NCBI GenBank assembly: GCA_019873655.1
Contig: JAIOAU010000010.1
Span: forward strand, 1-64,000
Direction: 5' to 3'
DNA: 64,000 bases
From: Chloroflexota bacterium
Lineage (GTDB): Bacteria; Chloroflexota; Anaerolineae; Anaerolineales; Villigracilaceae
This document shows, in pieces, positions 46,942 through 62,225 of the stretch. Made by a program: the position numbers and the translations under genes. The notes under the pieces were generated by a model that was not told the origin of the DNA, ran no database searches, and worked only from the letters and a program-made list of their open reading frames with translations. Position 1 is the first letter of the stretch. Every line of letters starts with the position of its first letter.

Positions 46942-49596
46942 ATGTTACCGGCCATTCGTAAACGGATTCGAGCAATTCATCGATTCCTTCGCACGCCTCT
47001 GCCTACCTGGGGGCGCATAGGGGTCGTGATAGGGCTGAGTCTCCTCTACTTTTTGACCTATCAGCCGATGGTCGAGACGGTCGGTTTGAACTGGACGGCG
47101 CTGTTGAGCGCGCCGATCATCCTCGCAGGATGGTATTTTGGACCGATTGCCGGCGTTGGCGCCGCCTTGCTTGCCAATGCGATTGTCACGATTCTCCTCT
47201 TCCGCGCCTGGCCCGAGAATTTTGTTGCTCAGTTGCTCTCGATCTGGCCGGCGTATCTGGTCTTTTTGGGGAGCGGTTATGTCGCCGGCCTCTTGCGCAA
47301 CAACGCGATCGAGCGTGCCCGCGCTGCAGACGAACTGCATGCGCGCGAACGTTTTCTTTCGATCATCAACATCACTACCAAACAGATTGTTGAACGGCAA
47401 GAGCCGCGGCAGGTCTTCTATCGGCTGCTTACCCACCTGACCAATCTCTTCGTGGCGGATTACGCCTATATCACCCGATGGGATGAGGAGCGGCAACGGG
47501 TGGTTCTGGCAACTTCCACGAAAACGCTGCCGAATCTTCCCGAAGAACTGGTCTTGGAGACCGAAGAAGCGCAGGTTACCCTCTCTGCACTGCAAAGCCG
47601 ACGCGCGCTTCTCATCGAGAATGCGCCGACCTCAGGATATATCGTTGATCCGGCACCTTTCCGGAAATTGGCGCTTTCTCCGAAAACGGCGCTGGTGATT
47701 CCCTTGTTGGCTGGCCAATACAAATTCGGGGCCGTGATACTCGTTTATGAAACCCCGCGTCGCTTCACAAAAGAAGAAGTGGCCTATGCGGACCTGGCGG
47801 GCAATCAGATCGCGCTGGCGCTTTGGACGGCTCAACAAAATCTCCAATTGGAGCAAAAACTCAAAGAGACGCTGACCTTTGCCCAAGTGGCCCAACTCTT
47901 GAGCGAAACCGAGCGGGTCGGTCTCGACAAAGTCATGCAAGCCATTGTCGATTCGGCGCAGAATCTCATCCCTGGCGCCACGCAGGTAGTCTTACACCTG
48001 CTCGATGATGAACAGCAGGTCCTGGTCCCTTGCGCCGTGGCCGGCCGGGGAAAGAGGCCTGCGGGAAAACTAAAAATGCGCATCGGAGAAGGCATTGCCG
48101 GTCTGGCGATTTCGACCGGCGAAACGATTTATGTCCACGATACGATGACCGATCCGCGTTTTCTCTCGCCCGGCAAACCGGCCAAATTCCGCTCCTTGAT
48201 CGTTGCGCCCATCCAGAGCCGCGACCGGCTGGTTGGCACCATCAGCATTCAGAGCGACCGGCCGAATGCTTTTGCTCTCGATGAAACTCGCCTCATCACA
48301 ACCCTCGGTTTGCAGGCTGCTGTGGCGATCGAGAACTCCACCCTGCTCGAGACCACCCGTCGCGATCTCCAGGAGATCAATGCGCTCTATCACATCACGC
48401 AACAATTGGTCGCCTCTCTTGATCCAGATCAGTTGATGAAAGATGTGGTGGACCTGCTGGCCGAAAGTTTCGGTTACCTTTATGTGCAGATATTCACGGT
48501 CGATCCGGATAGCGGCGACCTGGTCCTGCGCCAGGGAAGCGGTCAAATTGGCGCCCGTCTGAAGGAACAAGGACACCGTCTTCCGATTGGTTCGGGCATC
48601 ATCGGCCATACCGCCGAGATCGGCGAGCCGTTCTTTACGAATAACGTGGATGATGTGGTATTTTTCCTGCGCAACCCCCTCATGCCGGAAACGCAATCGG
48701 AATTGAGCGTTCCGATCAAAATCGAGGGCCAAGTGGTGGGCGTGCTGGATATTCAGCAGGCGCCGCCGGCGCGCCTGACTGCCCGCGATATGCAACTCAT
48801 GACCACCGTGGCCGACCAACTGGCGGTTGCTTTGCAGAAGGCCAATCTCTATACGAATTTGCAGAATGCTCTGCGCCAGGAACAGGCAACCCGCCTGCAG
48901 TTGATTCACAGCGAACGGCTGGCTGTGGTCGGTCGGCTGCTGGCCTCCGTTTCGCACGAATTGAGCAACCCGATGCAGGCCATCCAAAATGCGCTTTATT
49001 TGCTCAAGGAAGAGCGGGGAATTTCCCCGCAAGGGCGGCAGGATTTGGAAATCGTCCTCTCGGAGGCCGAGCGGATGGCCGTTATGCTGGAACGTTTGCG
49101 CGCCGCCTATCGGCCCGGCCGCGAGACGAATTTTCAGCCGGTGCAGGTCAACGACATCATCGAAACCGTCCATGCCCTGACGGCCACGCTGTTGCGCCAC
49201 AGCGCCATTTCCTTCGAGTTTCATCCCGATCCTGCTCTGCCGGAGATTCCTGCTTTGGCTGACCAACTGCGCCAGGTCTTCCTCAACCTCTTTGTCAACG
49301 CCGTGGACGCCATGAAAACCGGCGGGCGGCTCACCGTTGCGACGCGTCTGCTTTCTGAACACCGGGAAATCCTGGTTGAGATTTCCGATACAGGCCCTGG
49401 CATCCCTGAGGACATCTTGCCTCGAATTTTCGAACCCTTCGTAACAGGTAAAGAAAAAGGCTCTGGCCTTGGGTTGTTCGTTTCTCATGAGATTGTCATG
49501 AGACATCAGGGCCGTATTCAGGCGGAGAATAATCCGAACGGCGGCGCGGTCTTTCGCGTTTGGCTGCCGTTAGAAAGGGGAGGAGAGGAGGCATGA
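46942..49596 (+). CDS. GAF-rich sensor histidine kinase
   Basis: 884 aa. Membrane helices fill about residues 25-120, with a short linker, followed by three GAF domains (about 145-300, 325-475, 495-645). The kinase core has the H-box SHELSNPMQAIQNAL with His672, an N-box NLFVNAVDAM, G1 DTGPGIPEDI and G2 GSGLGLF. It is predicted to sense a membrane or cytoplasmic signal through the GAFs and phosphorylate the response regulator encoded 4 bp inside its end (ATGA overlap). The third GAF closely resembles those of the later genes in the locus. The ribosome-binding site is weak. Confidence 0.92.
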   Translation: MLPAIRKRIRAIHRFLRTPLPTWGRIGVVIGLSLLYFLTYQPMVETVGLNWTALLSAPIILAGWYFGPIAGVGAALLANAIVTILLFRAWPENFVAQLLSIWPAYLVFLGSGYVAGLLRNNAIERARAADELHARERFLSIINITTKQIVERQEPRQVFYRLLTHLTNLFVADYAYITRWDEERQRVVLATSTKTLPNLPEELVLETEEAQVTLSALQSRRALLIENAPTSGYIVDPAPFRKLALSPKTALVIPLLAGQYKFGAVILVYETPRRFTKEEVAYADLAGNQIALALWTAQQNLQLEQKLKETLTFAQVAQLLSETERVGLDKVMQAIVDSAQNLIPGATQVVLHLLDDEQQVLVPCAVAGRGKRPAGKLKMRIGEGIAGLAISTGETIYVHDTMTDPRFLSPGKPAKFRSLIVAPIQSRDRLVGTISIQSDRPNAFALDETRLITTLGLQAAVAIENSTLLETTRRDLQEINALYHITQQLVASLDPDQLMKDVVDLLAESFGYLYVQIFTVDPDSGDLVLRQGSGQIGARLKEQGHRLPIGSGIIGHTAEIGEPFFTNNVDDVVFFLRNPLMPETQSELSVPIKIEGQVVGVLDIQQAPPARLTARDMQLMTTVADQLAVALQKANLYTNLQNALRQEQATRLQLIHSERLAVVGRLLASVSHELSNPMQAIQNALYLLKEERGISPQGRQDLEIVLSEAERMAVMLERLRAAYRPGRETNFQPVQVNDIIETVHALTATLLRHSAISFEFHPDPALPEIPALADQLRQVFLNLFVNAVDAMKTGGRLTVATRLLSEHREILVEISDTGPGIPEDILPRIFEPFVTGKEKGSGLGLFVSHEIVMRHQGRIQAENNPNGGAVFRVWLPLERGGEEA

Positions 49597-50393
49597 ACCC
49601 ATCGGGAAAGATTCTGATCATTGACGACGAACTGAGTTTGCGTCAGACGCTCACCCGTATCCTGCGGCAGGCTGGTTTTGAAGTCACCAGCGCCGAAAGC
49701 GGAGAGCAGGGTTTAGCCTTCCTGCAGACCACCGAATTCGACCTGGTTTATCTGGACATCCGCATGCCGGGCATGGGGGGCTTGGACGTGTTGCAGGCCA
49801 TTCACGAGTCCCGTCCGGCGCTGCCGGTGGTGCTCTTTACCGCCCAGCCCGACCTGAGTTCTGCCCTCGAGGCGTTGCGGCGCGGCGCCAGCGACTACCT
49901 CTTGAAGCCTTTGCGGCCGGAGGTCATCATCGAGAGGACGCGCGCCATCCTCGCGGCCCAATCCCGCGAACGCCGCAAGCGCGAAATCCAGGCCCAAATC
50001 GAGGCCTTGCAGGCCGAACTCAAGAGCCTGGAAGAAGGATCGGCGGCTAACGCTTCCGTCGAGCGCGGCTTCCCTGCCGCCGAACGCTTCCTCAAACGCG
50101 GCGACCTGGTGCTCGACCTGCATACCCGCCGCCTGTCGATCGGCGACCGGCTCATTAACCTGCCTCCTACCTCTTTCGATTATTTGGTCGTCCTTGCCCG
50201 CCACGCTCCGCAGGTGGTGGATTACCAGACGCTGGTTGCCGAGGCGCAGGGCTATCAGGCCGAGGGGCGCGAAGCCCAAGAACTGGCCAAATGGCATATC
50301 CATCACATCCGCCAGGCAATCGAGCCGGATGCGCGTACGCCCACCTATCTTTTCAACGTGCGCGGCGTCGGATACCGGCTGATTGCCGACTGA
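49593..50393 (+). CDS. Response regulator, receiver plus OmpR-like winged helix
   Basis: 266 aa. The receiver domain has the acidic pair in LIIDDE, phospho-acceptor Asp55 in LDIRMPG, Thr in LFTAQPD and Lys in YLLKPLRP. A 40-residue coiled segment (about 120-155) links it to a C-terminal winged helix of the OmpR type (DLVLDLHTRRLSIGDRLINL, TYLFNVRGVGYRL). It should be the partner of the upstream kinase and act as a DNA-binding regulator. GGAGAGGAGG lies upstream of 49593. Confidence 0.92.
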   Translation: MNPSGKILIIDDELSLRQTLTRILRQAGFEVTSAESGEQGLAFLQTTEFDLVYLDIRMPGMGGLDVLQAIHESRPALPVVLFTAQPDLSSALEALRRGASDYLLKPLRPEVIIERTRAILAAQSRERRKREIQAQIEALQAELKSLEEGSAANASVERGFPAAERFLKRGDLVLDLHTRRLSIGDRLINLPPTSFDYLVVLARHAPQVVDYQTLVAEAQGYQAEGREAQELAKWHIHHIRQAIEPDARTPTYLFNVRGVGYRLIAD

Positions 50394-50414
50394 CTCTCAC
50401 CGTTGTTTTGACAG

Positions 50415-50454
50415 GAACCCGTTCCTCGACAAAGGAACGGGTTCTTGTTCTTTC
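50415..50454 (+). terminator. Intrinsic terminator after the response regulator
   Basis: A 12-bp stem gaacccgttcct/aggaacgggttc (50415-50426, 50433-50444) followed by ttgttcttt. Confidence 0.8.
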
Positions 50455-50523
50455 AACTTTTGCCAACCAATCCCTGTCTCTTCCTATCCGATGACAAACC
50501 GGCTTCGAGAGAAAATATAACCG

Positions 50524-52245
50524 ATGCAAAACTCATTCTCTTCCTCGACATCTCCTCGATTCCGTGTTCTGATTGTGGATGACCATCCCCATACAGCCGC
50601 CACCCTGGCGCGGGCGATTGCCTCTCTTGGGCCAAGCATCGAGGTGATTGCCGCGGAGAGCGGCGAAGCCGCCTTGAAACTCGTGCAGGACAAGGGGGTG
50701 GATATCCTCATCACCGACATGGTGATGCCGGGCATCAACGGATTGGAACTGATCGAAAAACTGCAGTCCCATCCGGCTGGCCGCCCGGCGTTCAATGTGC
50801 TGATCACTGCTTTCGACGTCCCCGGCTTGAAAGAGACCGCCCGCCGTTTGAAAGTCAGCGAGGTCTTGATCAAACCCGTCCGGCCGGAGCATCTTCGCCA
50901 GTTCGTGTCCAGAGCCATTGAAGGCCTGGGACATGCTCTTCCCCCTCAACCTTCGGAGGCCAAGACGCCGCTCAAGATTTTGATCGCCGATGACCTGCCC
51001 GATAATGTGGCGCTATTGAAGCGGTATTTGGAGAACGAGGGATATGTATGCCTCACGGCAGCGGATGGCGACCAGGTCCTGGCCCAAATGCGCAGCGAGC
51101 AGCCGGACCTGGTGCTGCTGGACGTCAACATGCCGGTCAAGGACGGATTCGAGGCCCTTCAGGAGATTCGCTCCGACCCGGCGATCGGTCATATCCCGGT
51201 CATCATTCTGACGGCCGCCCGCCTCGACCCGGTGGACATGCAATCGGCCCTCAACATGGGCGCTGACGACTACGTCACCAAGCCCTTCGATCGCCGCGAA
51301 CTCCTCGCCCGCATTCGGACGCGTCTGCGCGTCAAGGAGGCCGAAGACCTGCTCCGCCGCCGCAACCGGGAACTCAGCCTGTTGCCCGAGATCGGTCGCG
51401 AACTCAGCGCCCGCCTGGACATGGACGAACTGACCGATGTCATTCTGCGCCGCACCGTGGAAACCCTGGGGGCGCTGCTCGGGCACATCTGCGTCCTGGC
51501 GACGCGGCCTCCGCTTCACAAGACCTATCGCTTTCTTGCCGGCAACGGGTCGCAAGTGGAGATCCCCGAAGCGTTTCTGGATGAGATTCTCGAGCAAAGC
51601 GAAAAATCTCGTCAGGGGTTCATTTTCGACGATGTTCTCAAGGATGAACGCTGGCAGGCGGGGGTGGAGAACCCCATCCGCTCGATTGTGGTCGTTCCCA
51701 TGCTCGGCCGTTTCAGTTTCCTGGGCGCGCTCGTCCTTGCTCATGAACGGGAGAGGTATTTCGAAGTCGAACACGAATTGTTGTTGCAAGCCATTGCCAG
51801 TCAGGCGGCCATCGCCTTGGAAAACATACAACTCCATGCCAGCCTATTCGGCGACCAACTCGATGCCTTGTTATTCATGAGGGGCCGCTTTCATGCAGTC
51901 CTGCTGATTGACGAGAACAATGGCCTTCGTTGGGCTTACTCGACGCGGCAAGACCTGGTTATCGATTCCCGGCTGGTGGATCAGACGTTCAAAACCTCCG
52001 ACGGTTATGTCCCCCTGAGCCGCTTGTTCGAGGAAGCGCGGGCCAGCGGCAATGCCCTTGCGGGCGCGATGGACTGGCCGGATGGGCGCGCTTTCCGTGC
52101 TTTGATCCTGCCTTCCGAAGGAGATCAAGTGCTGATTCTCTTGAAAGAGTCGTTCCCGGAGGAAGAGAAGTTCGACCGTGAAAAAGGCATTGCCGATTCT
52201 GGCTTCTCTCACTCCCTCGATGATGCTTCTGCTATCCGCACCTGA
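50524..52245 (+). CDS. Double-receiver, GAF-containing signalling protein
   Basis: 573 aa. Receiver 1 covers about residues 12-135 with phospho-Asp65 (LITDMVMPG), receiver 2 about 150-270 with Asp200 (LLDVNMPVKDG). A helical linker leads to a GAF domain (about 285-440), and the C-terminal 130 residues are a small alpha/beta module, perhaps Roadblock-like or another sensor, that I cannot assign. No kinase, cyclase or DNA-binding output is visible. It could act as a phosphate-collecting scaffold between the kinases of this locus. The ribosome-binding site is poor. Confidence 0.85.
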   Translation: MQNSFSSSTSPRFRVLIVDDHPHTAATLARAIASLGPSIEVIAAESGEAALKLVQDKGVDILITDMVMPGINGLELIEKLQSHPAGRPAFNVLITAFDVPGLKETARRLKVSEVLIKPVRPEHLRQFVSRAIEGLGHALPPQPSEAKTPLKILIADDLPDNVALLKRYLENEGYVCLTAADGDQVLAQMRSEQPDLVLLDVNMPVKDGFEALQEIRSDPAIGHIPVIILTAARLDPVDMQSALNMGADDYVTKPFDRRELLARIRTRLRVKEAEDLLRRRNRELSLLPEIGRELSARLDMDELTDVILRRTVETLGALLGHICVLATRPPLHKTYRFLAGNGSQVEIPEAFLDEILEQSEKSRQGFIFDDVLKDERWQAGVENPIRSIVVVPMLGRFSFLGALVLAHERERYFEVEHELLLQAIASQAAIALENIQLHASLFGDQLDALLFMRGRFHAVLLIDENNGLRWAYSTRQDLVIDSRLVDQTFKTSDGYVPLSRLFEEARASGNALAGAMDWPDGRAFRALILPSEGDQVLILLKESFPEEEKFDREKGIADSGFSHSLDDASAIRT

Positions 52246-52309
52246 ATATAGACGATTCTTTCGTTCTTTCGCTCGGACCGTTATTTCTGGATAAGAAAAG
52301 GAGAAAAAC

Positions 52310-53284
52310 ATGTTGCTCAAACGTTTCGCGCTCTTGCTGCTTGTCCTTGGCCTCTTGCTCTCTGGCTGTCAAAGTGAGCCGCAGACCAAAACATACACCA
52401 TCGCTGTCATGGTCGAACTTCCCTGGCTGGAAGGAATCTACCATTACTTCAAAGAAGCCATGACGGAGATGGGGTATGTGGAGGGCGTCAATGTTACCTA
52501 CATCTACGAACCTACCTTTGGGCCTGACCAGGCTGCTTTTAACCAGGAAGCCGAACGCTTGATGGCGTACGATCCCGATCTGTTCTTCACGGTGGGTACG
52601 ATGACCACCCGGGCCGCCAAAGAAGCGGTGACGGGAACGGATATCCCGGTTGTGTTCACGCCAGTCATCAATGTGATGAACGAGGGCCTTGTGGACAGCC
52701 TTTCTCGTCCTGGCGGCAATGTGACCGGCGTCCAAATCATCGACCAGTCGCCGAAAGGCTTGGAATGGGCGATTCGGATAGTTCCCGACGCACAAAACGT
52801 GTATATCCCTCATAATCCGGCGGATCCGATCACGGCCGGGATTATGGAGGGCCTTCTGGAGGCGATTCCTGCTCTGGGGGTCAATTTGCTGCCCAGCGAG
52901 GTCGCCACGGTAGAGGAAATGGTCTCCAGGGTGGCGACTTTGCCGGAGCACACGATCATTTATGTCGTTTCGCCCATTTCCAGCCTGGAGGGCGGAGTCG
53001 AACAACTCGGTCAGGCCGCCCTGCAATACAGAGTTCCTCTGATCACTTGCAACCGGGATATTAATGAGCCGCCTTTTTCGATTGCCAACTATTCGGTCTC
53101 GACTCGAGAGGAGGCCAGGCAGGGCGCCCGTATGGTAGACCGGATTCTGCGAGGCGCGAACCCGGCTGATACGCCGGTCGAAACCGCGGAATACTTCCTG
53201 ACGATTCACCTTGGACATGCGGAACAGATCGGCCTTCAGATTCCCGATTCGGTGTTGAATCAGGCCAACGAAATCATTCGCTAG
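52310..53284 (+). CDS. ABC-type substrate-binding lipoprotein (TrpX-like, ABC_sub_bind family)
   Basis: 324 aa with a lipoprotein signal ending at LLSGC. The body follows the ABC_sub_bind pattern: GIYHYFKEAMTEMGY, FFTVGTMTTRAAKEA, DIPVVFTPVINVMNEGLVDSLSRPGGNVTGV, ending with an H-L-G-H-A-E-Q-I-G-L-Q-I-P segment. Family members whose ligand is known bind aromatic or other amino acids. No permease or ATPase of this kind is in the window, so it more likely hands its ligand to the sensor encoded next. AAGGAG lies upstream. Confidence 0.88.
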   Translation: MLLKRFALLLLVLGLLLSGCQSEPQTKTYTIAVMVELPWLEGIYHYFKEAMTEMGYVEGVNVTYIYEPTFGPDQAAFNQEAERLMAYDPDLFFTVGTMTTRAAKEAVTGTDIPVVFTPVINVMNEGLVDSLSRPGGNVTGVQIIDQSPKGLEWAIRIVPDAQNVYIPHNPADPITAGIMEGLLEAIPALGVNLLPSEVATVEEMVSRVATLPEHTIIYVVSPISSLEGGVEQLGQAALQYRVPLITCNRDINEPPFSIANYSVSTREEARQGARMVDRILRGANPADTPVETAEYFLTIHLGHAEQIGLQIPDSVLNQANEIIR

Positions 53285-53292
53285 ATCAACCT

Positions 53293-53329
53293 CCTCGGCT
53301 TCCAGAAAGCCATTTTCTGGAAGCCGAGG
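53293..53329 (+). terminator. Perfect 16-bp hairpin after the lipoprotein gene
   Basis: Arms 53293-53308 and 53314-53329 are fully complementary with a 5-nt loop. No T-tract follows, so it may act as an RNA-stabilising or partial termination structure between the lipoprotein and the sensor gene. Confidence 0.6.
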
Positions 53330-53401
53330 CCTAGTCGGGAATGGATAACGAAGTCTCTCTCGATAGACTATGAAGGATTGTACTGAGAAGCAAGGAGTTG
53401 G

Positions 53402-55135
53402 ATGATTATGAGAAAAAGTTTGCGCATTCGATTGGCGGTCTACTTCATTGCGCTGGTGTTGGTCCCATTGCTCGTTGTGGGGGCGATCGGCACCTGGCAG
53501 ACCTATCGGACGCAAAGCCGTCAGGCGCTGGAGGCGCAAAATCAAACTGCCCAGCGCGTTTCCGAACAGGTCAAGAGTTTCATCCAGGAACGAGAGAATG
53601 AACTTCGCATTCTTACGGATGTCAGCGGCTTCGCGTTCGCTTCTCGCGATCAGCAGTCGGACATGCTCTCGACCCTCTTCTCCAGGCAAATCGTCTATGA
53701 GGAACTTATCCTGGTGAACAGCGCCGGCAGAGAATTGATTTATCTTTCCAGAAACAGAATCATTCCCGACGACGAATTGTCTCGCCGTGTTGGGATGGAT
53801 GAATACGAACAGCCGCGTTCCACCGGCCAAACGTATTTCAGCCCGGTCTCCTTCGATCCTGCAACGGGCGAGCCCTCTATGATGATTGCTGTCCCGGTCC
53901 AGGATTTGCGTTCTGGCAATCTCCTCTATGTGCTGATTGCCAAATTCCGTTTCAAACCGGTGTGGGACATCATGGCTCAGGCCGATGTGATTGGCAGCAG
54001 CGTGGTTTACATGACCGATAACAACTTCTACGTTGTTGCTCATCCCAACCCCTCTGTCGTTCTGCAGAGAACGCAAGTCAATCCACCGCCTGTCAACTCT
54101 TTTACCACGGGTTTGAGCGGCGGCAATGTTGCCATGGCGCGCGTCGAAATTCGCTTCAACCAGCAGGTATTCCATGTGTTTGCCGAACAACCTGCTGCTG
54201 AAGCCCTCTCGCTGGCCATCAACAACATTATCCTTACTGCAAGCGCTACCCTGGCAGCCATGATTTTGGCTGTTGTCGTGGGCGTGCTTGCGGCGCGCCA
54301 GATTACCACTCCCATCGGCGAACTTGCCGAGGCGGCGCGCCTCATTACCGCTGGCGATTTGACGCGCGAGGCGCGCGTGGCTTCTCAAGACGAAATCGGT
54401 TTCCTCGCCAACGCGTTCAACAGCATGACGGTGCAGTTGCGCGGCCTGATCGAGAACCTGGAACAGCGCGTCGCCGACCGCACCAAGGCTCTGGCTACCT
54501 CCACCGAGGTCAGCCGCCGCCTGTCCACCATTCTGGATGAGAAGCAATTGGTGAAAGAAGTGGTCGAGCAGGTGAAAAACGCTTTCAATTACTACCATGC
54601 TCACATTTACTTTTTCGATGAAGCGGGCGAGGAACTCATCATGGCAGGCGGCACGGGCGAGGCCGGGCAGACGATGCTGGCGCGCGGCCACAAGATTCCC
54701 AAAGGCAAGGGCCTGGTCGGCCGCGCCGCCGAGACCAATATGCCGGTCCTGGTTCCGGATACCGCCCAGGACCCAGACTGGCTGCCCAACCCTCTCTTGC
54801 CCGAGACGAAGTCCGAGGTGGCTGTTCCCATTTCGATTGGTGAACAGGTGCTGGGAGTCTTGGATGTACAGCAAAATATCGTCAACGGCTTGACGAACGA
54901 CGATGTCAGTCTGTTGCAGTCCATCGCCAACCAGGTGGCCATTGCCGCCCGCAACGCTCGTTCCTTCACAGAAGCCCAGCGGCGCGCCGAACGCGAGGCC
55001 TTGATAGCCTCGATTAGTCAGAAAATCAGCGAGGCCACCACCGTGGATAAGGCCTTGCAGGTAGCCGTCCGCGAACTGGGACAGGCGCTCGGGGCGCAGA
55101 GTACACGCGTGACCCTTCGCGCCAGCAAGTCTTGA
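53402..55135 (+). CDS. dCACHE-HAMP-GAF sensor without a kinase
   Basis: 577 aa. Two membrane helices (about residues 9-30 and 280-300) flank an extracellular dCACHE-type domain with R-x-Y-like ligand pocket positions and two lobes. A HAMP domain follows ([23 protein letters not shown]), then a GAF domain (about 375-540) with the locus-specific [18 protein letters not shown] motif, and a short helix. There is no histidine kinase, methyl-accepting or cyclase domain. dCACHE domains often bind amino acids. It probably signals by interaction with the kinases nearby. Confidence 0.88.
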
Positions 55136-55186
55136 TGTTGAAAATCTGAGAAGCACCAACCTTGTCAACCAAAAAGGAGAGATGAA

Positions 55187-55711
55187 ATGAACAAGTATGT
55201 GAAAATCGTTCTCGTCGCCCTAGCCTTTGGCGCAATTGCTTTGGGCATCGTTTTGGCTGGTTTCACCATTCCGCTCAGCACAGGCATCGTCACCGACCCG
55301 CGCGAAATCTTTGTGACGATCGGCGCGGCCCTCACTGGGCCTATCGGGGCGCTCATCATTGGCTTCATGGCGGGCATTGCCGAGCCGGGCGGCATTCCCC
55401 TGGCCAGTCTGTTGGCTCACCTGGCAGGGACCCTGTGGATGGGCTTTGCCTACAAAAAACTCGTCTATGAGCGCACCACGAAATTGCCGATGCGCCTGCT
55501 GGGATGGGCCTTGCTGGTGCTCGTGTATTACTACCTTATTGTGATCCCCGGTTTTATCGTTGGCCTTACGCTCTTCTATGGCCTCGAGTCTCCCTGGCAG
55601 GTTTTGCTGGAAAGTTATCCTGCGGCCACGCCCGAAGCGTTGATCACGACCGCCGTTACCACGCTGGCTTTTCTGGCGCTGTCCAAGCAGGTGCAGAAGC
55701 CCCTTTGGTGA
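55187..55711 (+). CDS. Small integral membrane protein, LytS-5TM/ECF-S-like
   Basis: 174 aa with five predicted membrane helices. The segment DPREIFVTIGAALTGPIGALIIGFMAGIAEPGG resembles the Gly-rich repeats of 5TM sensor domains of LytS type and of ECF transporter S components. AAGGAGAG lies 7 nt upstream. It stands between a sensor and a kinase gene and may form a membrane sensor subunit. The assignment is tentative. Confidence 0.7.
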   Translation: MNKYVKIVLVALAFGAIALGIVLAGFTIPLSTGIVTDPREIFVTIGAALTGPIGALIIGFMAGIAEPGGIPLASLLAHLAGTLWMGFAYKKLVYERTTKLPMRLLGWALLVLVYYYLIVIPGFIVGLTLFYGLESPWQVLLESYPAATPEALITTAVTTLAFLALSKQVQKPLW

Positions 55712-55828
55712 GTTCCAGGCGCTGTGTCTTTGCTCGCCATGAGCGCGGAGACTTGTCCACCCTCCCTGTAAAGCCGCGCCGGTCAAATCCAGGGATTTGC
55801 TAACGTAACGAAAAAGTAGGTGCCTGTT

Positions 55829-58800
55829 ATGAGCCAATTTCGCAGCCCCATTGTGTGGCGACTCATCCTGTGGTTTTTCCTGCTTTCGCTGGTGCCGGTT
55901 GCCATCGTGCTGATTTTCGTTCAGCGAGATGTGCAAGCCTCGGTGCTCGAGCTCCAGGCTCGCGATGCTCGCAGTCTGGCGCATTTGCTCGCCGACAGAA
56001 TCGTCGCCGAACCAGGGGCTATGCAGACCATCGTTCAAGAATTTACCGCGCCAGGTAGAACGGTGTTCGTCTTGGGAGCAGATGGGACCTATCTGGCCCA
56101 TTCGGACAGCGAGAGAGTTGGACAGAAGGCCAGCAGCGATTTTGCCGACCCCGAAACTCTCGACCAAATTCTCTCCAGTCCAGAACTCGCCGCCAATGTG
56201 GAACAAACCCAGCAATTGGTCGTTTCGCTCCAGAGGGGGGATATTTTCCTGGTCATTCTCGAAAACACCAATCCGACCATCAGCGCGCTGCAGGAACTGT
56301 CGGGCAAAGTCACCTTGCGGCTGATTTTTAGCCTCGTTATCACGTCTCTGGTAGGCGGCGCGGCGGTGCTCACGGTTCTGAATCCCCTGGTCAAATTGTC
56401 GGCCTTTGCCAATCAGTTGGGCGAAAACCTGAACGCGCCCCTCGACAAGAGCGAGTTCGAGGGCGAAATTGCCGCCCTGGCGAACAGCCTGACGGCCATG
56501 GCCGAGCGATTGCGGCAATCGTTCAGCAACCTCGAGCAGCGCGTCGCCGACCGCACTCACGACCTCGAACTGGCGTCCGAAGTGGGCCGGACGATCACCC
56601 AGAAGGTCGCCGATCTCGACGCCATGCTGAGCGAGGCGGTGGAATTGATTCGCGCCCGCTTTGGCCTGTACTACACGCAAATTTACCTACTCGACCCTAG
56701 CCGCCGCGCCCTTGTCCTGCGCGCCGGCACCGGCGAGGTGGGCAAACAACTCTTGAGCCGCGGCCACCGCCTGGCTGTCGGCCCCGGCTCCCTCAACGGG
56801 CGCGCCGTTGCCGAAAACCGGGCCATCATCGTGGCCGATACCGCCGAGAGCGAAAGTTTCCTGCCCAATCCGCTCCTTCCCAACACCCGTTCCGAAATGG
56901 TGGTGCCGCTGGTGATTGCCGATGAAGTCATCGGTGTGCTCGACATGCAGTCCGAAATTCCTGGCGCCTTGAATGAAACCAACCTGCCCGCTTTCACCGT
57001 TCTGGCCGGGCAACTGGCGGTGGCGCTCCAGAACGCCCGTTTGTTTGCTGAAAGCCGTCAGGTGAGAGAGGAACTCGAAGACAACATCCGCCGCTTTACC
57101 GAGGCGGGCTGGCAGGAATTCCTGGACGGCATCGAACACAGTATGAGTCTCGGCTACGCCTTCGATCAAGACAAACTGATCGAGTTGACGCCCGAGGAAG
57201 AAGACCCTGCTCCCGACGCCCTGCACGTTCCCATTACGGTCGGCGGGGCGACCATCGGCGCTCTTCAGGTCGCCGGTGAAAATCGGGACTGGACGCCCGA
57301 TGAAGCCGAGGTCGTCCAGTCGGCGGCCCGCCAACTGGGCCAGCACATCGAGAGCCTGCGTCTGCTGGCCCGCGCCGAACGCTACCGGGTCGAGGCGGAA
57401 GAAGCCGTCCGCCGCCTGACGCGCGAAGGCTGGGAAGCCTACATGAAAGCCCGCCGCGAAATGGGCTGGGGCTATGTCTTCGACCTCAACAAGGTGCAGC
57501 CGCTCGCTGAGCAGGATGGCAACGGTTCGAAACCGGCCCTCAAGCGCTCCCTGACCGTGCGGAACGAACCCGTCGGCGAACTGGCCGTGGAGACCGGCGC
57601 GATTTCCGACGAAACGACTCAAATCCTGGAGTCCGTCGCCCAACGATTGAGCATTCATCTGGAAAATTTGCGCCTCTCCGAACAAAACGAACGGCGCGCC
57701 TATAACCTGGCCACCGTTGCGGCGGTCAGCACCACCGCTTCGACCGTGCTCGACCCCGACGCTTTGCTGCAATCTGTCGTTGACCTTGCCAAGACTCGCT
57801 TTGGCCTCTATCACGCTCACATTTACTTGGTGGACGAGAGTTGGAACACTTTGATGCTCTCTGCCGGGGCGGGCGAGGTCGGGCGGCAATTGGTCGCTCA
57901 ACGGCATGCCATTCCGCTCGACGCCGAACGCTCGCTGGTGGCGCGCGCGGCCCGCGAGCGCGCCGCCGTCATCGTCAACGATGTGCGCGCCGAGCCGGAT
58001 TTCCTGCCCAACCCGCTGCTCCCCGAAACCCGCTCGGAAATGGCCGTCCCCATGATCGTCGGCGATAAAGTCCTGGGCGTGTTCGACGTGCAGTCGGACT
58101 TACTCGATCACTTCACCGAAGAGGATGCCAATATCTACACCACCCTGGCCTCGCAGGTCGGCGTCGCCTTGCAGAACGCCCGTCTGTACGCCGCCCAGAC
58201 GGCCACCGTCGCCCAGTTGCGTGAACTCGACCGCCTCAAGTCCTCCTTCCTGGCCAACATGTCGCACGAACTGCGCACGCCGCTCAACTCGATTCTCGGT
58301 TTTGCCGATGTCATCCTCGAAGGATTGGACGGCCCGCTGACGGAGAACATGACCACCGACCTGAAACTCATCCAGAAGAACGGCCAGCACCTGCTCCACC
58401 TCATCAACGACGTGCTCGACATGGCCAAGATCGAAGCCGGCCGCATGAACCTGGTCGTCGAACGCTTCTCCCTCTACGAAATCCTTGAGGAAGTGACCAG
58501 CATCACCTCTCCCCTGGCCAGCGAGAAGAATCTGGCCCTCTACATCGAACCCGATACGGACAAGACCGTCGAAGTCACCGCCGACCGGACGCGCCTGCGT
58601 CAGGTGATGCTCAACCTGGTCAACAACGCCATCAAATTCACCGAACAGGGCAGCATTGCCATCTCTGCCCGGCGCCAGGACGACCACGTTCTGATTCGGG
58701 TCAAAGATACCGGCATCGGCATCGCTCCGCACCAGATCGAGGCCATCTTCCAGGAATTCGTCCAGGTGGACACGTCCACCACCCGCAAAGTGGGCGGCAC

Positions 58801-58957
58801 CGGCCTGGGCCTGCCTATCAGCCGACGGTTGATCGAAATGCACGGCGGCAAACTGTGGGCCGAGAGCACCGGCGTCCCCGGCGAAGGTTCGACCTTCTAC
58901 GTCCTCCTGCCCCTCGAGGCCCGCATCAGCGAGCCGCAGGAGAAAATGGAGAAGTAA
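55829..58957 (+). CDS. Hybrid-architecture GAF sensor histidine kinase
   Basis: 1042 aa. TM1 about residues 9-31, an extracellular segment of about 130 residues, TM2 about 165-185, HAMP-like coil, GAF 1 (about 255-405), two related weak GAF-like modules (about 410-520 and 525-635), GAF 2 (about 645-800), then the kinase core: H-box SHELRTPLNSILGF with His813, NLVNNAIKFTE, DTGIGIAP and GTGLGLPIS. ATG at 55829 has AGGTG at proper spacing; GTG at 55820 is an alternative. It ends 1 nt before the threonine-synthase-receiver gene, its likely partner. Confidence 0.92.
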   Translation: MSQFRSPIVWRLILWFFLLSLVPVAIVLIFVQRDVQASVLELQARDARSLAHLLADRIVAEPGAMQTIVQEFTAPGRTVFVLGADGTYLAHSDSERVGQKASSDFADPETLDQILSSPELAANVEQTQQLVVSLQRGDIFLVILENTNPTISALQELSGKVTLRLIFSLVITSLVGGAAVLTVLNPLVKLSAFANQLGENLNAPLDKSEFEGEIAALANSLTAMAERLRQSFSNLEQRVADRTHDLELASEVGRTITQKVADLDAMLSEAVELIRARFGLYYTQIYLLDPSRRALVLRAGTGEVGKQLLSRGHRLAVGPGSLNGRAVAENRAIIVADTAESESFLPNPLLPNTRSEMVVPLVIADEVIGVLDMQSEIPGALNETNLPAFTVLAGQLAVALQNARLFAESRQVREELEDNIRRFTEAGWQEFLDGIEHSMSLGYAFDQDKLIELTPEEEDPAPDALHVPITVGGATIGALQVAGENRDWTPDEAEVVQSAARQLGQHIESLRLLARAERYRVEAEEAVRRLTREGWEAYMKARREMGWGYVFDLNKVQPLAEQDGNGSKPALKRSLTVRNEPVGELAVETGAISDETTQILESVAQRLSIHLENLRLSEQNERRAYNLATVAAVSTTASTVLDPDALLQSVVDLAKTRFGLYHAHIYLVDESWNTLMLSAGAGEVGRQLVAQRHAIPLDAERSLVARAARERAAVIVNDVRAEPDFLPNPLLPETRSEMAVPMIVGDKVLGVFDVQSDLLDHFTEEDANIYTTLASQVGVALQNARLYAAQTATVAQLRELDRLKSSFLANMSHELRTPLNSILGFADVILEGLDGPLTENMTTDLKLIQKNGQHLLHLINDVLDMAKIEAGRMNLVVERFSLYEILEEVTSITSPLASEKNLALYIEPDTDKTVEVTADRTRLRQVMLNLVNNAIKFTEQGSIAISARRQDDHVLIRVKDTGIGIAPHQIEAIFQEFVQVDTSTTRKVGGTGLGLPISRRLIEMHGGKLWAESTGVPGEGSTFYVLLPLEARISEPQEKMEK

Positions 58958-58958
58958 G

Positions 58959-60623
58959 ATGGCCTGGCCGAACTTTCTGCAATGCGCCGTTTGCGGCCAT
59001 CAGCAGCCCTACGAACCCTTCGTTCCGGCAGTCTGCCAGGCGTGCGGCGCTCAGTGGCTGCTGCCCAACTATGATTTCAAGGCGTTCAAACGCGAGATTT
59101 TGCGCGGCCTGCCCGGCCGCCCCTCCAATCTCTGGCGCTACCAGGATGTTTTGCCTCTCAAGAATCCGGCCGCTCTGGACCTCTATCCGGCCGGCGGAAC
59201 CCCGCTCTGGCTCTCGCAGCGTTTTGCCCCCGCCCTGGGCCACAGCCGCGTCTACATCAAGGACGAGCGCTTCGGGCCGACCAGTTCGTTCAAGGACCGT
59301 CAGGCGGCTGTGGCGGTGGCGGCCATGAGCGAGGGCGGGGTGCGCGAAGCGGTCATCGCCTCGACCGGCAACGCCGCGGTCGCCTACGCCGCGGCCTGCG
59401 CCCGGGCGGGGATCAAGTTGTGGGTCTTCATGACCAGCCTGGTGCCCCAGGAGAAACTGCGCGAGGCGGCTCTCTTCGGGGCCGAGGTCATCCGCGTCAG
59501 CGGCAACTACGACCAGACCAAGCAGATCGCCGCCCAGTTCGCTCAACGCCGACACCTGCTGCTCGACCGCGGCGCCAGTTCGGTGCCGGCCCGCGAGTCG
59601 ATGAAGACCATCGCTTATGAGATCGTCGAACAACTCGGCTGGCGCGCCCCCGATTGGTACATCCAGGCCGTCAGCGGTGGGCTGGGGCCGCTGGGCGTCT
59701 ATCAGGGCTTCAAAGAACTGTTCGATATGGGCCTGATTGAACGCATCCCCAAACTGGCCATCGTCCAGGCCGAGGGGTGCTCGCCGATGGTGCAGGCGTT
59801 CAAGGCCGGGAAAGAGGTCGCCGATCCGGTGGTGCCCGACACCTGCATCATTATTCTCTCGACCGGTGATCCCGGCAAAACGTACACTTACTTGTGGAAC
59901 ATTATCCAACAACATGGCGGCGCGATGGAATCGGTGACCGACGCCGAAGCCTTTGCCGCCATGCGTTCGCTGGCCAAGAGCGAGGGCATGGCCGTCGAAC
60001 CGGCGGCGGCGGTGGCTTTTGCCGGTCTTGAAAAAATGGTCAAGAACGGTACAATTGGCGCCGACGAGACGGTGGTCGTCAATTGCAGCGGACACACCTT
60101 CCCGGTCGAAAAACACGTCCTGGGCGAGCAATTCGCCGTAGATGTTCACTTGAGCGAAGGCCAGACTCCCGCCCCGCGCGAGGGCCTGTTGGCCGCCCTC
60201 GAAAATCTGGACGAAAAGACCACCACCGTCCTGGTGGTGGATGACAACGATGACGACGCCCTGCTCATCCGCCGTCTGTTGGAGGGGCGCAAGGCCTACC
60301 GTGTGCAGCATGCCAGGGATGGTTGGGAAGGCCTGGCCCAGGCCCGCCAGACCTTGCCCGACCTGATCGTTACCGACCTGATGATGCCGGGCATTGATGG
60401 GTTCGGTCTGGTGGAAGAATTGAAACTCGACCCGCGTACGAAAGACATACCCATCGTCGTGGTCAGCGCCAAAGACATCACCCCAGAAGAACGGGCGCGG
60501 CTGAATGGTTACATCGAGGCTGTTTACCAGAAGAGTTCTCTGACTCCGCGCAAGTTTGTAGAACAGGTCGTGCAAGTGATCGAAGAGGAGAAGGGAACAA
60601 AGGAGAACGCTCATGGGATATAA
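58959..60623 (+). CDS. Threonine-synthase-like PLP enzyme fused to a response-regulator receiver
   Basis: 554 aa. An N-terminal zinc ribbon (CAVCG and CQACG) precedes a fold-type II PLP domain (about 70-405) with Lys112 in SSFKDRQAA as the Schiff-base Lys, the STGNAAVAYAAA substrate loop and the SGGLGPLGVYQG phosphate-binding loop. A receiver domain follows (about 420-545): DD in LVVDDNDDD, phospho-Asp473 in VTDLMMPGIDG, Ser in VVSAKD and Lys in VYQKSS, all in place. I know of no described enzyme of this architecture. It overlaps the next receiver gene by 11 bp and starts 1 nt after the kinase stop, so phosphorylation by that kinase is likely. Confidence 0.9.
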   Translation: MAWPNFLQCAVCGHQQPYEPFVPAVCQACGAQWLLPNYDFKAFKREILRGLPGRPSNLWRYQDVLPLKNPAALDLYPAGGTPLWLSQRFAPALGHSRVYIKDERFGPTSSFKDRQAAVAVAAMSEGGVREAVIASTGNAAVAYAAACARAGIKLWVFMTSLVPQEKLREAALFGAEVIRVSGNYDQTKQIAAQFAQRRHLLLDRGASSVPARESMKTIAYEIVEQLGWRAPDWYIQAVSGGLGPLGVYQGFKELFDMGLIERIPKLAIVQAEGCSPMVQAFKAGKEVADPVVPDTCIIILSTGDPGKTYTYLWNIIQQHGGAMESVTDAEAFAAMRSLAKSEGMAVEPAAAVAFAGLEKMVKNGTIGADETVVVNCSGHTFPVEKHVLGEQFAVDVHLSEGQTPAPREGLLAALENLDEKTTTVLVVDDNDDDALLIRRLLEGRKAYRVQHARDGWEGLAQARQTLPDLIVTDLMMPGIDGFGLVEELKLDPRTKDIPIVVVSAKDITPEERARLNGYIEAVYQKSSLTPRKFVEQVVQVIEEEKGTKENAHGI

Positions 60624-61014
60624 CATTCTCTATATAGAAGATAACCCGGATAATATGATCCTCGTCAAGCGCACCCTGGAGGCGCGCGGTTATAAAATGT
60701 TCGAGGCGGCCAACGGGACCGAAGGCCTTGCCATTGCCGAAAAAGAGGATATCGATCTCATTCTGCTGGACATTAACTTGCCCGACATCGATGGCTACGA
60801 GGTGGCCCGCCGTTTACGGAGCAATCCCGTCAAACCCAGCCTGATTCACGTGCCGATCATTGCCATCACGGCCAACGCCCTCAAAGGGGATGCCGAGAAA
60901 GCGCTGGCTGCCGGGTGTGATGTTTACATGTCGAAGCCGATCAACATCCACGAATTGTGGGCGCGCGTGGAAGGATTTGTGCCTTCTCCCAAGAGCAGTA
61001 CTGGTTCGGTGTGA
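60613..61014 (+). CDS. Single-domain response regulator (DivK-like)
   Basis: 133 aa: one receiver domain with DN in YIEDNPDN, phospho-acceptor Asp53 (LLDINLPDIDG), Thr in AITANALKGD and Lys in YMSKPINI. No output domain. It can move phosphate between partners or act by protein contact. It starts inside the end of the synthase-receiver gene and has AGGAG upstream. Confidence 0.92.
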   Translation: MGYNILYIEDNPDNMILVKRTLEARGYKMFEAANGTEGLAIAEKEDIDLILLDINLPDIDGYEVARRLRSNPVKPSLIHVPIIAITANALKGDAEKALAAGCDVYMSKPINIHELWARVEGFVPSPKSSTGSV

Positions 61015-61034
61015 GACCAGCAGGACACGCCTAC

Positions 61035-62225
61035 ATGACCAAGCAACAAACTGCCCGGGTAGCGTTTTCCTATATTACTAGTATTTCGTGTTCCGCTTGT
61101 GGAAAATTCTATCCGGTGACGCAAGTCAATACCTATTGCCCGGATTGTCAGGCGCCTCTCCTGTCGCATTATGACCTGGAAGCCGTGCGCCGCTGCGTGG
61201 ACAGAGAGGAAATCCGCAGCCGGCGGCGCGGCATGTGGCGCTGGCACGAATTGCTCCCCGTTCAGCAGCCCGAAAACGTGGTGACCCTCGGCGAGGGGGA
61301 TACGCCTCTCTTGCCTCTTCCCAACCTGGGACGGTATCTCGGTCTATCCCGCTTGTTCGTCAAAGATGAAAGCAGCAACCCCACCGGCAGTTTCAAAGCC
61401 CGCGGTCTGGCCGCTGCCGTGTCCAAAGCCAGGGAATTGGGGATTCAGAAGGTCATCATCCCTACGGCGGGAAACGCCGGAGGGGCGATGGCAGCCTACG
61501 CCGCCCGCGCTGGAATCAGGGCCTACATCTTCATGCCCAAGGATACGCCGCATGCCAACGTCGAGGAAAGCCGCATGGCGGGGGCGGAGGTCATGTTGAT
61601 TGACGGTCTGATCAGCGAAGCCGCAGGTATGGCCGGCGAAAAGGCCCGTCAGGAAGGCTGGTTCGACCTTTCTACCTTCAAAGAACCGTACCGGGTGGAG
61701 GGCAAGAAAATCATGGGCTATGAACTGGCCGAAGATTTCGACTGGACCCTGCCCGATGTGATTCTCTATCCCACCGGCGGCGGCACCGGCCTGGTAGGAA
61801 TGTGGAAGGCCTTTGCCGAACTCGAAGCGCTGGGCTGGCTCAACCATCCGAGACGCCCGCGCATGGTGGTCGTCCAGGCCGAGGGCTGCGCGCCGATCGT
61901 CAAGGCTTTTCAAGCGCGTCAGTCGTTTTGTGATTTCTGGCTGAACGCCCACACGATTGCCGCCGGCCTGCGCGTCCCGAAGAGTTTCGCGGACCATCTC
62001 ATTCTGGCCGACGTCTATGAAAGCGACGGCATGGCGGTTGCCGTCAGCGATGAGGAGATTCTCAAAGCCCAGCGTCTGCTGGGGCGCGAGGAGGGCATTT
62101 TTGCGGCTCCAGAAGGAGCGGCCACCCTCGCCGCTCTCGAGAAGTTACTCGATATGAAGTGGATCGATGCGTCCGAACGCATTGTCCTTTTCAATACCGG
62201 TTCTGGCCTAAAATATTTGCCCTGA
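61035..62225 (+). CDS. thrC: Threonine synthase (second copy)
   Basis: 396 aa. A zinc ribbon (CSACG and CPDC) opens the chain; the PLP Lys121 is in NPTGSFKARG; TAGNAGGAMAAYAARAG is the substrate loop and PTGGGTGLVGMWKAF the phosphate loop. It would convert O-phosphohomoserine to threonine. It shares the zinc ribbon and fold with the fused paralogue upstream but little close identity. It follows the receiver gene by 20 nt. The start at 61035 has only a weak site; the longer frame from 60957 overlaps the receiver gene. Confidence 0.9.
   Translation: MTKQQTARVAFSYITSISCSACGKFYPVTQVNTYCPDCQAPLLSHYDLEAVRRCVDREEIRSRRRGMWRWHELLPVQQPENVVTLGEGDTPLLPLPNLGRYLGLSRLFVKDESSNPTGSFKARGLAAAVSKARELGIQKVIIPTAGNAGGAMAAYAARAGIRAYIFMPKDTPHANVEESRMAGAEVMLIDGLISEAAGMAGEKARQEGWFDLSTFKEPYRVEGKKIMGYELAEDFDWTLPDVILYPTGGGTGLVGMWKAFAELEALGWLNHPRRPRMVVVQAEGCAPIVKAFQARQSFCDFWLNAHTIAAGLRVPKSFADHLILADVYESDGMAVAVSDEEILKAQRLLGREEGIFAAPEGAATLAALEKLLDMKWIDASERIVLFNTGSGLKYLP

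Follow-up and report, generated by a model that had tools for sequence, protein, structure and literature searches.

A threonine-synthase-like PLP enzyme fused to a receiver domain is conserved in Chloroflexota and may form a phosphorylation-gated output of two-component systems

Two-component regulation is not confined to DNA-binding outputs, and response regulators with enzymatic output, such as CheB and PleD, tie a receiver to an enzyme. Control of PLP enzymes by an attached domain is also familiar: a C-terminal ACT domain controls the threonine deaminase IlvA, and CBS domains control cystathionine beta-synthase. Another example of a PLP fold within a regulatory protein is found in the MocR/GabR regulators, in which a DNA-binding wHTH domain is joined to an aminotransferase-fold sensor. 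Response regulators with enzymatic output domains constitute class vii in PMC5847659, whose section 14 presents the fusion of receiver (REC) domains to standard metabolic enzymes as a known trend in bacteria and ascribes a narrow distribution to the archaeal fusions of this kind. Receivers on metabolic enzymes are, according to that section, already known, and an output of the PALP family was not found in the literature searched. Likewise, no protein combining PALP or threonine synthase with a receiver was found there.

The protein described here is encoded in a 64,000-nucleotide stretch of a Chloroflexota contig (the whole of the DNA analysed, hereafter the window) by an open reading frame of 554 codons uninterrupted by stops (58959..60623, + strand). 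It resembles the enzymatic-output response regulators in that a receiver is tied to an enzyme whose activity is predicted to be set by phosphorylation, and it differs from them in that its enzyme part belongs to the fold-type-II PLP enzymes of amino-acid type and the receiver is C-terminal. The nearest working analogues are IlvA and cystathionine beta-synthase, which also consist of a PALP catalytic core followed by a C-terminal regulatory domain, although their input is a ligand-binding domain and that of the fused protein is a phospho-acceptor domain. Pfam detects PALP at residues 78-378 (59190..60092, +; 248 bits against a cut-off of 35) and Response_reg at residues 424-508 (61 bits against 30.2), and no further family at E 0.001. 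The sequence-only reading had described a PLP enzyme part with Lys112 and a complete C-terminal receiver, and both descriptions hold. K112, the predicted Schiff-base lysine according to the family motif, lies in SFKDRQ (59292..59294, +), and the receiver, which Pfam, alignment and AlphaFold place at about residues 423-540 (60225..60578, +), has D428/D429, the expected phospho-acceptor D473 (60375..60377, +), S503 and K525. N-terminal to the PALP core stands a zinc-ribbon-like cluster of C9, C12, C26 and C29 (58983..59045, +) which presumably binds zinc. AlphaFold, run on a 40-row alignment (mean pLDDT 78.4, pTM 0.67), predicts two folded parts joined by a linker of about 40 residues (379-420; 60093..60218, +) with pLDDT below 50. 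Comparison of this model with the PDB, a search that effectively covered the PALP part and barely tested the receiver part, returned threonine synthases (Z 34-40; 2.1-2.7 A) along with one chain, labelled cysteate synthase in one place and CapA2 in another, at Z 37 and 3.0 A. The protein shares with the threonine synthases (TIGR00260, NF006050; PDB 1uim, 2zsj, 2d1f, 6cgq, 1e5x) the fold, the SFKD motif, the STGN loop and the N-terminal Cys stretch, which falls within the NF006050 alignment; unlike them, it has a C-terminal receiver, and its substrate and C-terminal motifs mostly differ. With cysteate synthase (TIGR03844; PDB 9k3c) it shares the fold and a near-full-length alignment including the N-terminal Cys stretch, although it scores far below the cut-off (125.4 against 324.9) and the 398-position TIGR03844 model has no receiver. 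An antisense open frame of 566 aa (58926-60626, - strand) spans the whole fused gene and is probably a shadow of the coding strand.

The joining of two genes by a sequencing frameshift, named in the sequence-only reading as one of two results that would refute the fusion, was looked for and not seen, and stops between the two domains, also looked for, were absent from all 84 distinct homologous loci read. A frameshift or chimera is ruled out by these 84 distinct fused proteins, by the recurrence of the fusion in related genomes and by a second full-length fused copy on another contig of the window's genome, 51% identical to the first. The second copy directly follows a hybrid kinase of 1836 aa (L009:12328-17835, - strand) with seven GAF matches, HisKA, HATPase_c and two terminal receivers, and is followed after 25 nt by a gene for an EamA transporter (Pfam EamA; L009:9666-10616, - strand). 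The fusion as first observed is confirmed by the open frame, the second copy and the 84 homologues. The window's own genome and 60 relatives were searched at E 1e-60; of these 61, 50 gave a match, and every one of the 50 has a full-length fused match, which in one genome is split into two pieces of a single frame. A single match reaching into both domains occurs in 77 of the 249 genomes of the class sample and in 36 of the 350 of the phylum sample; in the latter, fused proteins score above 500 bits and PALP-only proteins below 240, with nothing in the gap between. Outside the window's class, fused matches are limited to the families f90 (six genomes) and f79 (one genome). Herpetosiphon giganteus DSM 589 carries a fused copy, among the matches listed, in a scan whose patterns favour close relatives, and one f90 genome holds the same fused protein as this species. 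In comparison with the archaeal fusions of receivers and enzymes, narrow in distribution according to the part of PMC5847659 that treats them, the fused PALP-REC protein spans the order, the class and Herpetosiphon. These data support a real fusion, conserved widely, in which both the PLP enzyme and the receiver appear competent. Outside Chloroflexota, four other phyla were sampled at E 1e-72 and gave no fusion (0/201, 0/198, 0/249 and 0/199 genomes), zeros that carry no weight without a positive genome, and among plasmid records 27 gave a match, none of which covers 80% of the query. Unfused relatives, with 43-50% identity, were found in 4 of the 244 genomes of the Planktothrix-phylum (cyanobacterial) sample (L205-L208). 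One related frame of 525 aa (G052, L214:8897-10474, + strand) matches only residues 4-226 and could be either a degraded copy or an artefact of assembly.

The residues expected of both domains are retained throughout this set. From the returned loci 88 proteins were extracted, of which 84 are distinct after removal of the duplicates L044, L046, L050 and L151; fragments were excluded from the counts (G052:C1, covering residues 4-227 only, G161, G188, G108, G141, split in one frame, and G081:C682). Being the best-scoring loci, the 84 over-represent close relatives of the window copy, so that counts over them are not independent events. A fold-type-II PLP enzyme is indicated by the PALP profile together with K112 and N138, both present in 84/84, as are S/T377 and the four cysteines C9, C12, C26 and C29; a receiver is indicated by the REC match together with position 428, which is D in 74 and E in 10 proteins, and D429, D473, S/T503 and K525, again in 84/84. 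The mean pairwise identity is only 61% in the PALP part, 50% in the linker and 53% in the receiver, so the active-site residues are held while the rest drifts, and from these alignments the keeping of both residue sets in every homologue is judged to exceed chance. A tree was built from 63 PALP domains, with 35 drawn from the set of 84 fused proteins, the four unfused ones of the Planktothrix phylum and 24 threonine-synthase-like proteins. In it the 35 fused domains form one side of a branch with SH-aLRT 96, obtained by a quick method without bootstrap, and the four unfused Planktothrix-phylum domains adjoin this branch. The Herpetosiphon copy is placed inside type A (defined below), among members of the window's class, and may reflect a transfer.

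The genes around the fusion are those of a signalling locus. Directly upstream lies the gene of a putative partner histidine kinase of 1045 aa with HAMP, GAF repeats, HisKA and HATPase_c (55820..58957, +; Pfam); its TAA stop occupies 58955-58957 and the fused gene begins with ATG at 58959, a gap of 1 nt that agrees with what had been noted earlier. Downstream, the gene of a stand-alone receiver (60613..61014, +; Pfam) starts within the fused gene, sharing its last 11 nt, and is followed by a threonine synthase gene (61035..62225, +) whose product reaches 580 bits in the NF006050 profile search against a cut-off of 303; its start was taken as the ATG at 61035, the list of open reading frames beginning at GTG 60957. 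These genes belong to a run of ten on the same strand (46942-62225, +), mostly signalling genes, with the threonine synthase as the last. The run also includes, from 46942 onwards, a GAF histidine kinase, a regulator with Trans_reg_C and a REC-REC-GAF protein, together with an ABC_sub_bind protein (52310-53281, +), a dCache-HAMP-GAF membrane sensor (53402..55135, +) and a 5TM-5TMR_LYT membrane protein (55187..55711, +), the last three assigned by Pfam. Elsewhere, the fused gene is again found mostly amid signalling genes in the loci examined. The 84 loci were sorted, according to their length and their similarity in percent identity to the window protein, into type A (41), a tandem-REC type (15) and type B (28); the tandem type encodes PALP-REC-REC proteins of 683-713 aa, its 15 loci lying among L124-L143, and in L134 and L138 the second receiver lacks one residue of the acidic pair. 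These three recurring architectures offer built-in comparisons.

The sequence-only reading had proposed to check whether a kinase is a constant neighbour, and it is one in most loci and not in all. Within 1,500 nt upstream, in neighbourhoods whose genes were called mechanically, a histidine kinase core is encoded in 75 of the 84 fused loci (type A 41/41, tandem-REC 11/15, type B 23/28), the kinase frame ending at most 231 nt from the fused start. No kinase core was detected in that flank in the other 9/84, one of which (L133) lies at a contig edge. The eight kinase-less loci with a full flank, namely L144, L145, L157 and L158 of one genus, L128, L137 and L141 of another, and L143, mean that the kinase may sometimes be encoded elsewhere or be dispensable. 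For comparison, the 600 nt upstream of 22 unfused threonine-synthase-like genes from this phylum were inspected as a control: a kinase core alone was present at 56/84 fused genes and 0/22 unfused relatives, and a kinase core or a receiver at 75/84 and 0/22, respectively. Two rows were excluded from this control: the window's own threonine synthase (L003), preceded by the receiver that belongs to its cluster, and a gene of Variovorax (L052), preceded by neither element; with both restored, the control gives 1/24 for a receiver and 0/24 for a kinase core. This comparison supports a genetic tie between the fused gene and a histidine kinase.

Taken on sequence and predicted structure, the fused protein is rather likely to be a response regulator in which phosphorylation gates the output, a PLP enzyme derived from threonine synthase. 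The HAMP/GAF part of the upstream kinase would sense a signal and bring about autophosphorylation, the phosphate would pass to D473 of the C-terminal receiver, and the phosphorylated receiver would raise or lower the activity of the PLP enzyme tethered to it via the flexible linker of about 40 residues. The enzyme would most likely act on a related phospho- or acyl-amino acid, because it combines descent from threonine synthases with an active site of its own, and the adjoining stand-alone receiver probably shares or drains the phosphate of the kinase. If phosphorylation gates the enzyme in this manner, sensor kinases would steer small-molecule chemistry directly, without a transcription step.

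The main rival to an enzymatic output, by analogy with the aminotransferase-fold sensors of MocR/GabR, is that the PLP domain is itself a sensor, whose occupancy by an amino acid or PLP would set the uptake or retention of phosphate by the receiver and so feed metabolite status into the kinase network. This is considered unlikely, although the setting of the fused gene among signalling genes would suit it, as would the separate, stronger threonine synthase in 7/7 of the other genomes checked and the receiver sequences encoded downstream (41/41 type-A loci, 15/15 of the tandem type and 4/28 of type B), since such adjacent receivers in type A and the tandem type could carry the output. Unlike the MocR/GabR regulators, the fused protein has no recognised domain other than PALP and Response_reg (Pfam, E 0.001). 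The intact catalytic residues fit an output better than an input: K112, N138 and S/T377 are kept in every homologue and a pure sensor need not keep them. In addition, the EamA-like transporter gene found downstream of 17 of the 28 type-B genes fits a product.

Less probable again is the proposal of the sequence-only reading, in which the protein is a true threonine synthase, acting on phosphohomoserine, and the kinase steers the flux through it. It is true that the fused proteins match threonine synthase families best, that the window protein just passes TIGR00260 (169.2 against a cut-off of 167.1), that a threonine-synthase-like gene lies downstream in 15/41 type-A loci, and that the best other TIGR00260 match of the window's genome is the neighbour at 61035, with 186 bits; the fused enzyme may therefore have a role in threonine metabolism. 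However, the window protein misses NF006050 (251 bits against 303), its paralogue in the same genome falls under both cut-offs (154.1 for TIGR00260 and 249.6 for NF006050), and 7/7 other fused-bearing genomes checked have, apart from the fused gene, a match to TIGR00260 that reaches 297 bits or more, the fused enzyme being the sole candidate threonine synthase in none of the eight examined with the window's own. The active site differs as well: the stretch N-S-x-N...E-G-Q-K-T of five solved threonine synthases, which we take to have a role in phosphate binding, is mostly replaced by D-x-G...E-[SA]-M-K-T in the fused proteins, with D203 in 82/84 and G205 in 84/84. The N-S-x-N stretch alone is not decisive, because the neighbour at 61035, which passes NF006050, also departs from it. 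The fused proteins further have the glycine loop S-G-G-x-G-P-x-G and the end C-[ST]-G-H-T, where the unfused genes shown have T-G-x-G in 23/24, the remaining one being cut off. Steering of threonine synthesis by the kinase is not borne out by these results, and the housekeeping role in threonine synthesis probably does not fall to the fused enzyme, given the missed NF006050 cut-off and the separate, stronger match in the seven other genomes; a specialised reaction is likely. The label 'threonine synthase' on fused proteins is consequently doubtful. The four proteins of the cyanobacterial phylum are a lead to the reaction, as they carry much of this signature without a receiver: they have D-x-G...E-[SA]-M-K-T and the glycine loop as in the fused proteins, and end in S-G-H-T (two) or S-G-R (two). 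The neighbourhoods of the unfused relatives, of which the first 60 residues per neighbour were considered, gave nothing conclusive as a clue to the reaction.

Least probable of all, a receiver serving solely as a docking or phosphate-sink module on a constitutively active enzyme would suit the further receiver beside the fused gene in 41/41 type-A loci and the branch that the enzyme's receiver shares with the final receiver of each of six hybrid kinases, but would leave unexplained why both sites are intact in one polypeptide in 84/84 homologues. That branch comes from a tree of 85 receivers, in which the receivers of the fused enzymes and the final receivers found in six type-B hybrid kinases fall together at SH-aLRT 96, on few columns and with one of the six kinase receivers on a long branch. 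The last receiver of the 1836-aa kinase that precedes the second copy in the window's genome lies on this same branch, and four further type-B kinases (L171, L178, L179 and L180) have their only detected receivers in the other group. That the enzyme's receiver shares an origin with the final receiver of some type-B kinases is suggested by this arrangement and not settled by it.

As regards the proposed phosphorylation-gated enzyme, type B provides a further element, in that the transporter gene following it may point to export of a product. In a more speculative extension, to which we give little confidence, these loci would represent a widespread two-component class of Chloroflexota that acts through neither transcription nor a nucleotide second messenger. 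Its output would instead be an amino-acid-derived molecule made by a phosphorylation-gated PLP enzyme and, in type B, exported via the co-encoded EamA protein. If the export reading of type B were true, the module would convert the signal that it senses straight into a small molecule released from the cell. A separate observation concerns one type-B locus, in which a gene for an S-adenosyl methyltransferase (Methyltransf_19; L180:4305-5141, + strand) and two similar genes upstream of it lie just before the kinase of the fused locus.
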